Position numbers and translations under genes: made by a program | Notes under the pieces: model-generated | The model's input: only the letters and a program-made list of their open reading frames with translations | What the model was told of the DNA's origin: nothing | Databases searched by the model: none | Shown here: positions 3,299 to 7,862 of the stretch, piece after piece | Layout of the letters: the number at the start of each line of letters is the position of its first letter | Position numbering within the stretch: position 1 is the stretch's first letter | Assembly (NCBI GenBank): GCA_934573945.1 | Contig: CAKTMQ010000040.1 | Coordinates: 1 to 12,434, forward strand | Source of the DNA: an uncultured Oscillospiraceae bacterium | GTDB taxonomy: Bacteria > Bacillota > Clostridia > Oscillospirales > Oscillospiraceae | Length of the DNA stretch: 12,434 nucleotides | Reading direction: 5' to 3'

Positions 3299-4009
3299 TT
3301 AATACTTCCAGCTTCGTCCCGGTTCCATAAACTCCGCCACCCGTTTTTCATAGCTGTCCATGGCGGCCTGTTCAAAGGCCAGCGCGTCGGAGGGAGCACC
3401 CATCTGCCGCAGCAGCCACTTGCACAGCGGCGGGTTCAGGATCAGCAGCGGGCCGATGAGGTAGGTGGCCAGCAGGCCGCCCCGGCGGAAGCCCTCGCCG
3501 CTGCCCTCGGTGCCGTCCCGTCCCACGCCCTTCACGGTGGCGAACAGCGCCTCGCCGACGCCGTGAGAGTGGCCGAACAGGCTCTTGAAGCCCACGATGT
3601 CCATGTCCTCGAATTTGCCTACAAAGAAGCTGTTGTGCCGCTGCATCATGCGGTAGGAGGCGTGGGTGTCCAGCAGCCCCAGTCCTTCGATCCGGGGCGC
3701 CGTGTCGCTGTCGATGTAGCTGCCCAGAATGTCCAGCGCGTTGCCGGTGGCCAGAAACAGCTGGCCTGCGTCCACCCGGGCGGCGATGTCGTCCCGGTAG
3801 GGACGCAGCGCCTCCGCCGCCAGCAGCAGACCCTGCTCGGTGGTGGAGCCCATGAAAACCAGCGCGATCTCCTCGGTCAGAAACCGGGGCTTGGTTTTCA
3901 GGTCGGTCTCCACGATCTCCAGCTGCCCGCAGCAGCGCTTCAGATAGTGGATGTTCTGCAGATCGCCGTAGAGGTTGCATACCTCCGGAAATAAGATCTC
4001 CGCTTTCAT
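3299..4009 (-). CDS. gatD: GatD-like class I glutamine amidotransferase homologue lacking the catalytic Cys and His
   Basis: A 236-residue protein, the usual size for GatD, the subunit that supplies ammonia to MurT for amidation of D-Glu in lipid II. The family is recognisable by the N-terminal LYGDLQNIHYLK (residues 13-24), MGSTTEQGLLLA (53-64) and the C-terminal TYLIGPLLILNP (182-193). However, the nucleophile elbow, normally of the form LAICGGYQ, reads LATGNALDILG (86-96), with no Cys. The catalytic His of the usual YLHGP motif is Ile185 (codon 3455-3457). So the glutaminase centre appears dead. The start is ATG at 4009, overlapping the murT stop by ATGA, which implies translational coupling and a stoichiometric complex. 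It may act as a structural or regulatory subunit, or the complex may use free ammonium. Family membership is confident; the function is open. Confidence 0.8.
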   Translation of the reverse strand: MKAEILFPEVCNLYGDLQNIHYLKRCCGQLEIVETDLKTKPRFLTEEIALVFMGSTTEQGLLLAAEALRPYRDDIAARVDAGQLFLATGNALDILGSYIDSDTAPRIEGLGLLDTHASYRMMQRHNSFFVGKFEDMDIVGFKSLFGHSHGVGEALFATVKGVGRDGTEGSGEGFRRGGLLATYLIGPLLILNPPLCKWLLRQMGAPSDALAFEQAAMDSYEKRVAEFMEPGRSWKY

Positions 4010-5394
4010 TGGGCGTTTCCTCCCTTCGCCAGCAGCAGTTCCTTCAGTTTCGCCTTTACCCGGAAGGCCAGCGGTGTGCCGTCCACGCCGTAGAGGATAT
4101 ATACGTCGTCGCCGGGGGTCAGATACAGCTTGTCCAGCGCCTTGAATTCGTCGTCCTCCAGAAAGATCTTCTCCTCCGGGATCCCTGCCAGCAGCAGCCG
4201 CAGCTTGTAGTCCCGGGCGCGTGGGCCGGCACACACCAGCTGCACGATGTCGTCGTGGTTGAGGAACTCAAAGTCGGTGTCGTACATCCAGCTGGGGTTC
4301 TCCGACCAGTTTTTGGACACGCCCATGCAGTTCATCATCACCAGCAGCTCCTTGCGGCCGGGCTTGGACTGGATGTAGTCGAAGTTCCGGCTGCAGGCCA
4401 GAGCGTTCTTGTCCTTGGACATCTGCATGATCACGTTGACGCCGCCGATCTTCTCCTCAGAGAGACGGCTCTCCAGGATCTTCGTCCCGGCAAACTGCTG
4501 CCGGATGGTCTCGTGGGACAGTCCCAGCTGCCGCAGCACGGCGATGACCGCCATCATGTTGTAGATGTTGAACAGACTGTCGGTGATCAGGTCATAGGGG
4601 TGCTCGATGCCGTCCTTCTCCCGTACCACCATGGTGCGGCCGGTCAGATCCACCTGCTGCGCCAGATAGTCCGCCTCCGGGGAGTGGAAGCCGCAGCTCT
4701 CGCACACGGCGTGGCCGATGTGGTGGTAGCGCCGGTACTCATACCGAAGCTTGCCCGCGCAGCGGGGGCAGATGCGCATATCGTTCAGCAGGTTCACGCA
4801 GTCAGTCACGTCGCCGGGCATCCGGCCGATGCCAAAATAGCAGCGGGCATTGTCCGGCGCCACACCGCAGGAGATCAGATCGTCGGCGTTGAGGATCAGC
4901 TTGCTCTCCCGCGGCAGATTCCGGCTGAGAATGTCCGCGATGTAGCCGGGGTGGGCGTTGCGCATGATGGAATCCCGGAACAGGTTGGTGATGAGGATAT
5001 ACTGGGGCTTGATATAGGGGTAGATCCTCGGCGCGGAGCGCTCGTCTATTTCCAGCACTGCCATGTCACAGCCGCGCACCCGCCCCAGCAGGTCACAATT
5101 GCGGATAAAGGCGGTGGATATGCCGGAGGTGATGTTGCTGCCGGCGCGGTTGCTGAGCACCCGGTGTCCCTCCGCCTCCAGCATATCCGTCAGCATATTG
5201 CTCACGGTGGTTTTGCCGTTGGTGCCGGTGACGGCCACCATCAGCGGCGGCTTGCCCACATATTTCAGAAAGTCCGGGCACAGCTTCACCGCCAGCGAGC
5301 CGGGGAAGTCGGTGCCGTTGTGCCCCGTGATCTTCAGCGCCGGGATGGACAGCTTGCCCAGCCACAGCGCCAGCAGAAACCGCAGTTTTCCCAT
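4006..5394 (-). CDS. murT: MurT-like Mur ligase (lipid II isoglutaminyl synthase, ligase subunit)
   Basis: A 462-residue, ATP-dependent Mur-ligase-family enzyme; MurT with GatD converts D-Glu of the peptidoglycan stem peptide to D-isoglutamine at the inner face of the membrane. Visible: P-loop GTNGKTT at residues 57-63; a Mur central domain with ITNLFRD (135-141) and LILNADD (166-172); the MurT-typical four-Cys zinc ribbon CPRC (209-212) and CESC (231-234); and a C-terminal domain (DUF1727-like) with SWMYDTDFEFL (368-378). That last motif carries the Asp which, in characterised MurT/GatD, completes the amidotransferase triad. All the expected ligase features look intact. The start is ATG at 5394, GGAGG 7 nt upstream, only 2 nt after the stop of the preceding gene. 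It is in an operon with mnmG, a cyclase-family hydrolase and the gatD-like gene. Confidence 0.9.
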   Translation of the reverse strand: MGKLRFLLALWLGKLSIPALKITGHNGTDFPGSLAVKLCPDFLKYVGKPPLMVAVTGTNGKTTVSNMLTDMLEAEGHRVLSNRAGSNITSGISTAFIRNCDLLGRVRGCDMAVLEIDERSAPRIYPYIKPQYILITNLFRDSIMRNAHPGYIADILSRNLPRESKLILNADDLISCGVAPDNARCYFGIGRMPGDVTDCVNLLNDMRICPRCAGKLRYEYRRYHHIGHAVCESCGFHSPEADYLAQQVDLTGRTMVVREKDGIEHPYDLITDSLFNIYNMMAVIAVLRQLGLSHETIRQQFAGTKILESRLSEEKIGGVNVIMQMSKDKNALACSRNFDYIQSKPGRKELLVMMNCMGVSKNWSENPSWMYDTDFEFLNHDDIVQLVCAGPRARDYKLRLLLAGIPEEKIFLEDDEFKALDKLYLTPGDDVYILYGVDGTPLAFRVKAKLKELLLAKGGNAQ

Positions 5395-5396
5395 GG

Positions 5397-6023
5397 TCAG
5401 TCCTCCATTGCGATGGCGCGGCAGGAGCAGCCATCGGCGTTTTCGAATTTCAGCGGCAGCGTCACGAAGGTGAACCGCCGTCCCAGTAGGGCGTCCAGCC
5501 CCTTGAGGTTCTCAGTGTTGACAAAGTCCGCACGCATCAGGGCGATGTGGTTGGGGAAATCGGTGCTGTCGCAGGGATCCAGCGAGATGGTGTCCTCGCC
5601 CACGCCCTTCAGGGGCAGCGCGGCCAGATAGGCCGCGGCCTCTGCCGTCAGACAGGGAAAGCCCTCAAAGTAGGCCGCCTGCCCCCACTTTTTGTCCCAG
5701 CCGGTGCAGAACAGCACAAAGTCCACGCCTGTCAGATCATAGCGGCGCAGCAGCGGCAGCGTGATGGCCGCCTCGCCCCGGCAGTCGATCACCACGGCGG
5801 TGCCGGCGAATTTGCCGCCGGAATAGCTGTCCAGCGCGGCACCGTCCGGCAGCATATGCGCCGGCGCGTCCATATGGGTGCCGGTGTGGGAGAACATATG
5901 CAGCAGCGTCTCCCGGTAGCCCGCCTGGTCAATGGTGCAGGCGGTGGTCAGCTGCGGCTGCTCCGTGCCGGGATACACCGGCATATCGTTCCGGATGGTA
6001 TGGGTCAGATCATAGACCTTCAT
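5397..6023 (-). CDS. Cyclase-family (kynurenine-formamidase-like) metal-dependent hydrolase
   Basis: A 208-residue protein of the cyclase family (PF04199 type), which includes arylformamidases and isatin hydrolases. The start [10 protein letters not shown] is typical, and the metal-binding motif [11 protein letters not shown] (residues 46-56) is complete, with His46, His50, Asp52 and His56 as likely metal or catalytic ligands. [10 protein letters not shown] (around 150) is also a familiar block of the family. The true substrate cannot be told from sequence. The start is ATG at 6023 with AAGGAGG about 7 nt upstream. The frame is also open upstream into mnmG because of a deletion in that gene, so automatic calling may give one 821-residue fusion; the ribosome binding site and full-length domain argue for an independent gene. 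It is followed after 2 nt by murT. Confidence 0.85.
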
Positions 6024-7862
6024 GGCCGTTCCTCCTTTTCTTTTCCCAGATAGATCATCAGTGCCGCCATGTCGGCGGGGACGGACGGCGCTGAGCTTTT
6101 CCCGTGCCTCCAGCCGCAGCCCCTGAATGTGGGCGTAGTCCAGCTCCTCCGGCAGCAGACGGCATTCCAGCCGTTCGAATTCCTCCACCTGCTTTTGCTG
6201 GCGTTGGATGTAGCCCTCGTACTTGACGGCGATCTCCACCTGCTCCACCACATCCCGACCCAGTACCGGTGCGCCGGGATCGAAGGGCCTCAGATCCGCG
6301 TAGCTGATCTGAGGCCGCCGCAGCAGATCGATGAGGCGGCATCCATCGGTAACGGGCGTGGTGCCCCGCACCGTCAGCATATCGTTGAGTGCCGGACTGC
6401 CCGGAATGCCGGTGTGCTCCAGCCGCCGGATCTCCTGCGCCACGGCGCGGTACTTGGCCTCCACCGCCGCCAGCCGTTCGGCGCTCACCAGCCCGATCCG
6501 GTGCCCGATGGCCGTCAGCCGTGCGTCGGCGTTGTCCTGCCGCAGCACCAGCCGGTATTCGGAGCGGCTGGTCATCATGCGGTAGGGCTCCTCGGTACCC
6601 TTGGTCACCAGATCGTCGATCAGCGTGCCGATATAGCTCTCGCTGCGCTTGAGTACCAGTGCTTCACGCTCCAGCAGTGCCAGCGCCGCGTTGACGCCGG
6701 CCACAAAGCCCTGTACGGCAGCTTCCTCGTAGCCGGAGGAGCCATTGAACTGCCCTGCGCCGTACAGCCCCGCCACCGCCTTTGTTTCCAGCGTGGGTTT
6801 CAGCGCCAGCGGATCGATGCAGTCGTATTCGATGGCGTAGGCGGGGCGGGTCATCACCGCCTGTTCCAGCCCGGGAATGGTGTGCAGCATCCGGATCTGC
6901 ACCTCCTCCGGCAGGGAGGAGGAGAAGCCCTGAATGTACAGCTCCTCGGTGTCCAGCCCCATCGGCTCGATGAACAGCTGGTGCCGGGGCTTGTCGGCAA
7001 AGCGCACTACCTTCGTCTCGATGGAGGGACAGTACCGCGGGCCGATGCCCTCGATCACGCCGCTGTAGATAGGGCTGCGATCCAGATTCTCCCGGATGAT
7101 CCGGTGTGTCTCCTCATTGGTATAGGTCAGATAACACACCGCCCGGTTTTCCGGCGGCTGCGTTGTCTCAAAGCTGAAGGGCAGGGGAGAGGGGTCGCCC
7201 CGCTGGATCTCCATTTTGGAGAAGTCCACAGTGCGGGCGTTGATCCGGGGTGGCGTGCCGGTCTTGAACCGCCGCAGCGGCAGTCCCAGTGCCCGCAGTG
7301 CATCGCCCAGCGCGGCTGCGGGGTGCATCCCGTCCGGCCCGCTGTCCTCGATGCACTCGCCGATGATGGTGCGCCCGTGGAGGTAGGTGCCGGAACAGAT
7401 CACCGCAGCTTTGACGGAGAACACCGCCCCTGTCCGCAGTACCACCTGCGCCACGTGACCGTCCGCCACCCGGATGTCCACCACCTCGCCCTGCCGGACA
7501 GTCAGGTGGAGCTGCCGCTCCAGTGTGTGCTTCATGATCTTCTGGTATTCCCGCCGGTCAGCCTGCGCCCGCAGCGACCACACCGCCGGCCCCTTGCCCC
7601 GGTTGAGCATCCGATACTGGATGCAGGCGCGGTCAGCCGCCTTGGCCATCTCGCCGCCAAGCGCGTCCAGCTCCCGCACCAGATGCCCCTTGCCGGTGCC
7701 GCCGATGGCGGGATTGCAGGGCATATTGCCTACGGCGTCCAGATTGATGGTAAAGCACACCGTCTCCAGCCCCAGCCTGGCCGCCGCCAGTGCCGCCTCG
7801 ATGCCTGCGTGCCCCGCACCGATCACGGCAATATCAAATTGTCCCGCCGAAAACTCTTTCAT
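6020..7862 (-). CDS. mnmG: tRNA uridine-5-carboxymethylaminomethyl modification enzyme MnmG, frameshifted near the C-terminus
   Basis: An FAD-dependent enzyme that, with MnmE, installs the (carboxymethyl)aminomethyl group on U34 of tRNAs. Visible: FAD site [17 protein letters not shown] from residue 15; [14 protein letters not shown] with a conserved Cys; [26 protein letters not shown]; and [11 protein letters not shown] with the second conserved Cys. The frame is normal up to EKLSAVRP (residue 595). There the usual continuation, about 14 residues with the QASRISG motif, is missing and the frame changes. The expected end, [22 protein letters not shown], is present in another frame (6076-6020) and its TGA would overlap the cyclase ATG. 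In the uninterrupted frame translation instead runs on into the cyclase gene (to 5397). The start is ATG at 7862, with GAGGG 6 nt upstream. Up to residue 595 the protein is complete; loss of the C-terminal tail, which belongs to the MnmE-binding helical domain, may impair it. A sequencing or assembly error is the main alternative. Confidence 0.9.

Follow-up and report, generated by a model that had tools for sequence, protein, structure and literature searches.

The window, by which we mean the whole stretch of 12,434 nucleotides analysed here, encodes a GatD homologue in which both catalytic residues of the glutaminase are replaced, next to a MurT ligase. A non-hydrolytic GatD that is conserved over a clade and kept together with its MurT is well supported by the sequence comparisons. 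We give a probability of roughly one half to the reading that this pair belongs to an old and stably maintained branch in which glutamine hydrolysis has been given up, and in which MurT would work as an ammonium ligase and GatD as its scaffold. GatD is treated as the glutaminase of lipid II D-glutamate amidation, a modification reported to be essential in several Gram-positive bacteria (PMC6085368). A large branch devoid of glutamine hydrolysis in which both subunits are kept would separate the structural role of GatD from its catalytic role, show how ligases shift from glutamine to ammonium, and alter the gene-based prediction of wall chemistry in gut clostridia. In the literature searched, mostly outside subscription journals, we recognised no description of a Cys-less GatD branch.

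The gatD-like gene (3299..4009, minus strand; 236 aa) lies downstream of a murT-like gene on the same strand (4006..5394; 462 aa, with Mur_ligase_M and MurT_C domains). Both overlap through an ATGA at 4006-4009, as had been described, and hence show the adjacent, co-directional arrangement of a murT-gatD operon. Among 41 relatives, 25 share the 4-nt overlap, and the others have murT ending at most about 160 nt from gatD, on the same strand. MurT passes the Pfam cut-offs (PF08245, 38.9 bits; PF08353, 87 bits) and GatD barely passes that of GATase_3 (PF07685, 27.5 bits for a cut-off of 27). Both proteins miss the NCBIfam equivalog cut-offs, with 53.4 against 450 and 35.9 against 400 bits for GatD, and 196.5 and 181.7 bits, both against 800, for MurT. 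Pfam, phmmer, alignment and the predicted structure, in which the GatD fold is kept, all place the protein with GatD. By kinship and fold it is a GatD, and the defining catalytic feature is absent from it. Proteins of the CobB/CobQ type, which have a corrinoid role, belong to the same Pfam family. They differ from the window GatD in that their GATase_3 domains keep Cys and His, according to PMC5871853.

The nucleophile elbow of the window GatD reads LATGNALDILG (residues 86-96) and the second motif reads YLIGP (residues 183-187), with Ile185 (3455..3457, minus strand) at the position of the catalytic His189. The loss of both Cys and His, which the preliminary description had claimed from the letters alone, is thus confirmed. 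It had placed the Thr88-Gly89 codons correctly at 3743-3748. Gly89 (3743..3745), rather than Thr88, most likely occupies the position of Cys94, the nucleophile of S. aureus GatD. Both hhalign and MAFFT produce a gapless alignment in which these two residues coincide, although phmmer pairs Cys94 with the preceding Thr88 (3746..3748) and the helix in the predicted elbow begins one residue early compared with that of a predicted canonical GatD.

Among the best 120 of 689 homologues both catalytic residues are absent in all; counting the query, Gly89 is found in 121/121, position 88 holds Thr in 120 and Val in 1, and position 185 holds Ile (112), Thr (8) or Leu (1). We then compared residues between 54 canonical rows and 109 rows of the main clade (including two whose length excluded them from the tree described below), omitting gaps at each position. 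The Cys94 position is Cys in 54/54 canonical rows and, in the clade, Gly in 108 and Ala in 1; that of His189 is His in 54/54 canonical rows and Ile (45), Leu (34), Thr (26), Val (2) or Ser (2) in the clade. Thr88 was considered as a substitute nucleophile and rejected: Val, Ile, Leu or Ala occupy its position in 10/109 clade rows, so it is not invariant and therefore not an essential nucleophile. No alignment column holds His in more than half of the 109 clade rows. A single column is more than half Cys (59/109 rows; Cys11 of the window, in the NLYGD motif), and since Cys is absent from the remaining rows it is not a general replacement.

On the other hand, parts of the glutamine pocket are retained. 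Arg124 (3638..3640, minus strand) corresponds to Arg128, for which a role in glutamine capture is described (PMC5871853), and this position is Arg in 104/109 main-clade rows. Glu58 within GSTTE (3836..3838, minus strand) replaces the Asp of the canonical GGGQD motif, position 63 being Glu in 105/109 clade rows and Asp in 50/54 canonical ones. An Arg and an acid kept in this way suggest that ligand binding by the pocket persists, a property for which a pure scaffold would have no use. GatD could hence be a glutamine sensor that does not hydrolyse its ligand and gates an ammonium-using MurT, the catalytic atoms being gone and the binding residues kept. We consider this rather improbable, as the channel-plugging Tyr17 is Tyr in just 59/109 clade rows and most of these rows have other residues in place of the oxyanion glycines 60-61.

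The preliminary description had called the MurT partner intact. This holds for the P-loop TGTNGKT (residues 56-62; 5209..5229), the zinc ribbon (4693..4770), whose four Cys are kept and whose motif is present in all eight MurT sequences inspected, and the DTDFEF motif (residues 372-377; 4264..4281), all on the minus strand. The ligase core is complete: K59 (in the P-loop), N85, E110, D112 and E113 are all found in the window and in 107/107 clade rows, the latter also keeping D136 and R140. It does not hold for the triad Asp, the loop facing GatD or the acceptor-side motif. The triad has been proposed to consist of the GatD Cys and His and a MurT Asp, and a MurT-D349N mutant is severely impaired (PMC6113224). 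In the window the position of this Asp, which contacts the GatD His (Asp349 in S. aureus, Asp355 in S. pneumoniae), is Asn366 (4297..4299, minus strand), so that retention of the triad Asp is not supported. DTDFEF is a separate motif whose first Asp corresponds to the S. pneumoniae gate residue D361. Position 355 is Asp in 54/54 canonical rows and, in the clade, Asn in 73, Glu in 18, Asp in 10 and others in 8 (n=109). Directly before the lost Asp stands a new carboxylate, Glu365 (4300..4302, minus strand); position 354 is Glu in 81/109 clade rows, and an Asp or Glu is found at 354 or 355 in 106/109. Position by position, the residues of this triad have therefore been lost jointly in most members, with a complete ligase core. 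Alternatively, GatD Asp32 has been proposed as the third triad residue, and MurT D355A was found to lower activity without abolishing it (PMC6085368). This acid is kept, as Asp16 in the window and as Asp (80) or Glu (26) in the clade (n=109).

The side of MurT that faces GatD has been rebuilt. The loop to which PMC6085368 assigns this location and a role in the complex reads FRDSIMRNAH in the window (residues 139-148; 4951..4980, minus strand), with a new Asn146 and a new His148 (4951..4953); the canonical FRDQLDRYGE has become mostly FRDSIMRNAH or YRDQLTRNGH in the clade. Loop position 141 is Asn in 103/107 clade rows and Tyr or Phe in 54/54 canonical ones, and position 143 is His in 102/107 against Glu in 51/54. 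A new Arg119 (5038..5040, minus strand) adjoins the Mg-binding Asp-Glu pair, at position 114, which is Arg in 104/107 clade rows and Ala (45) or Gly (9) in the canonical ones (n=54). A separate table of MurT residues, in which the Asp349/Asp355 numbering was checked, has three columns, from which 11 rows labelled 'other' were omitted. The idea that His148 serves as the Mg-binding His known from Mur ligases was rejected, its loop position being 143 and not that of Gln137, which we take, from Mur ligase motifs, to match that His. Finally, positions 348 and 352, in a DNAAD-like motif near the acceptor, are Asp in 50/54 and 54/54 canonical rows and varied in the clade.

A loop and a DNAAD-like motif altered beside the triad could mean another acceptor or another donor. 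Glycine or cadaverine is joined to the D-glutamate carboxyl in other bacteria. Putrescine is found on D-Glu in Cyanophora paradoxa (PMC3266927). The window pair might still modify the D-glutamate of lipid II but use glycine, a diamine or some further amine instead of ammonia, held or guided by the GatD pocket. The rebuilt MurT loop and acceptor side, the nearly invariant new Arg, Asn and His, and the retained Arg128 are consistent with it. We nonetheless regard it as unlikely, for no donor-specific motif was found and the ammonia path between the subunits is thought to be blocked or narrow in the known complex (PMC6085368).

To assess how widespread the loss is, we examined several samples. 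A scan of genome contigs gave 41 relative loci, almost all from metagenome-assembled genomes titled Oscillospiraceae, Ruminococcaceae, Lachnospiraceae, Clostridia or Bacillota, and Cys and His are both absent in 41/41, a count that is biased because the scan patterns derive from the same Cys-less branch. To avoid this bias, the MurT domain alone was searched for in 150 genomes from the family to which G001 belongs. MurT was found in 95, all of which were classified. In 36 of them the pair has Cys and His intact, and 51 have a Cys-less pair like that of the window; the tree assigns 45 of these to the main clade, and motifs in the elbow, the His loop and the MurT loop identify the other 6. In the remaining 8 GatD was partial, otherwise lost or undetected. 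An intact pair never occurred together with a Cys-less one of this kind in any of the 95, whereas independence would predict 10.8 such genomes among the 150 for the 45 alone, shared ancestry being ignored; it is as if one pair replaces the other. Taken from their sequences, many gut clostridia do carry a Cys-less MurT-GatD pair, and the loss is permanent. The loss over the clade that the preliminary description had proposed to look for is hence found in the best 120 homologues, the 41 loci and the 109 clade rows alike.

These results also bear on the possibility that MurT has moved to an acceptor other than lipid II, its glutaminase becoming dispensable once the ligase had changed substrate. 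Positions 348 and 352, proposed to contact the stem peptide, point in this direction, as does the presence of two Cys-less pairs in some genomes. The lack of joint occurrence with an intact pair speaks instead for replacement, and in one subgroup the pair adjoins genes that resemble, by eye, rlmN, a PP2C phosphatase and a Ser/Thr kinase. We hold a change of acceptor to be unlikely, too.

A MurT tree was drawn from 194 rows (quick, midpoint-drawn and with long branches; L013 and L099, shorter than 300 residues, were left out). In it 107 rows fall on one side of a branch with an SH-aLRT of 95, and a GatD without both residues accompanies all 107. An earlier tree of 128 rows places L001 and L004 nearest to the window, and both fall within this group. 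The label 'lost' requires five changes on the tree, which fits one loss for the clade and four outside it: a five-row group (L133, L156, L157, L160 and L162), and three single rows, L084, L182 and L184. In another ten rows just one of the two residues is missing. In the classification of loci MurT matches below 100 bits were omitted, and ten later loci were classified and stand outside the tree and the residue counts. The loci of the class (40) and phylum (20) surveys were picked largely for low score and give no prevalence figure. The MurT_C score alone does not separate both types, as the intact pairs L136 and L173 also scored low.

Constraint on both genes was estimated. Comparing the window with its closest relative (L001) gives a dN/dS of 0.23 (gatD) and 0.10 (murT); in six more comparisons with the window it ranges from 0.27 to 0.46 and from 0.20 to 0.48, respectively, with synonymous sites partly saturated. 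Values below 1 indicate constraint on both genes. Gene decay was therefore rejected, and a pseudogene or sequencing artefact, in whose favour nothing was found, is hardly credible, the same changes being found in open frames in the 109 clade rows and the 120 listed homologues.

The preliminary description had also suggested that another amidotransferase might supply ammonia. With a canonical GatD profile, no intact GatD was found in 41 relative genomes of unstated completeness. Matches reached at most 67.5 bits and coincided either with the Cys-less loci or with longer frames, mostly of about 500 aa, except for one of 21.5 bits in a 255-aa frame (G031:C1). Furthermore, the 45 MurT matches in these genomes are all of the Cys-less type: 44 lie beside a Cys-less GatD and the other (L193), cut at a contig end, has the rebuilt loop. 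Supply by a second intact GatD thus finds no support. Docking of a different glutaminase or amidotransferase to the complex is very improbable: some genomes do encode other GATase_3 proteins, such as CobB/CobQ-like frames of about 500 aa, but the GatD site on MurT is filled by the retained GatD.

The loss of the glutaminase half beside a complete ATP-dependent ligase suggests free ammonium or another amine as the donor. Ammonium is high in the gut and the rumen. A laboratory mutant resembles the window pair closely: S. aureus MurT with GatD-C94G, also with Gly at the nucleophile and a MurT otherwise equipped, keeps NH3-dependent amidation of lipid II at pH 8.5 and loses the glutamine-dependent one, and GatD is still needed for the former (PMC3266927). 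The window pair differs in being natural and fixed over a clade, and in that its His and MurT Asp are changed too; it carries equivalents of both C94G and D349N. Compared with the MurT-GatD structures of S. aureus (6gs2), S. pneumoniae (6fqb) and S. pyogenes (9sq9), it lacks Cys94 and His189, has Asn for Asp349/355, and shows replaced oxyanion glycines and a rebuilt MurT loop. Human CPS1 likewise keeps its GATase domain despite a lost nucleophile (Cys to Ser) and takes up free ammonia (PMC4655335), although its ligase is unrelated, whereas the window pair consists of two subunits and its ligase subunit has changed as well. By analogy with this dead GATase domain, ammonium use with GatD as an obligate structural partner is probably the simplest mechanism. 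MurT would still use ATP to activate a carboxylate, which is most likely the alpha-carboxyl of D-glutamate in lipid II; free ammonium would enter MurT directly through the acidic gate, where the new His could bind or deprotonate it; and GatD would hold MurT in its active shape, its still equipped pocket perhaps binding a small amino acid as a signal.

Among the options that had been put forward for a non-hydrolytic GatD, free ammonium with a scaffold GatD fits best. It agrees with the clade-wide loss, the joint loss of Cys94, His189 and mostly the MurT Asp beside an unchanged ligase core, the predicted fold, the constraint on both genes, the mutual exclusion with the intact pair, the lack of an intact GatD in the 41 relative genomes and the further losses apart on the tree. 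Against the ammonium reading stand the 10/109 clade rows that keep MurT Asp355, the retained GatD Asp of the alternative triad (PMC6085368) and the use of NH3 by the S. aureus enzyme at pH 8.5 and not at 7.5 (PMC3266927). Nor does it account for the rebuilding of the MurT loop or for the retention of the glutamine-binding Arg, which is why the sensor, other-amine and other-acceptor alternatives are considered. A broader proposal, which we put forward tentatively, is that clostridia have a separate, second kind of MurT-GatD, in which GatD would be a ligand-sensing non-enzyme and MurT, with its active-site loop rebuilt, would join free ammonium or another amine to a wall precursor. If true, wall chemistry would be tied to ambient ammonium or amines and not to glutamine.

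Annotation can mask the branch. In Vescimonas fastidiosa MM35 the pair lies on an 861-kb replicon near a flippase gene, and its GatD, with Gly and Leu at the two catalytic positions, is annotated as a hypothetical protein.

Several other arrangements were observed. The GatDs of the five-row group above have lost Cys and His, probably independently, next to MurTs in which Asp355 and the canonical loop persist; the loss hence does not require a changed loop. L008, L012 and L031 each have a second MurT-GatD pair beside the first, in tandem with it in L031 and on the opposite strand in the two others, and these second GatDs also lack Cys and His. Within the stretches fetched, 14 MurTs with canonical-like loops have no detected neighbouring GatD (L077, L078, L079, L083, L086, L100, L103, L107, L140, L147, L158, L166, L175 and L176); in L083 and L100 the next long ORF resembles, by eye, an amidohydrolase. 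L178-L181 form a distant MurT-GatD group with an LVTGSSLSLFG-type elbow, in which the HGP motif is still present and the Arg128 position is occupied by Glu or Val.

An mnmG-like ORF is found near the pair in 15 of the 43 loci compared (window, L001-L041 and L132). In ten of the 43, gatD is followed by ORFs that read by eye as rlmN and a PP2C phosphatase, with further ORFs reading as a Ser/Thr kinase and rsgA in nine of these ten. In the window, an 821-aa ORF (5397-7862, minus strand) joins in frame an MnmG, whose residues 1-606 align to relatives, and a cyclase-family protein, with the junction near 6058-6110. In L001, L007 and L132 both parts lie in separate stretches, and a second frame of the window resembles the MnmG C-terminus. 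The fusion is likely a local deletion or a sequencing error.
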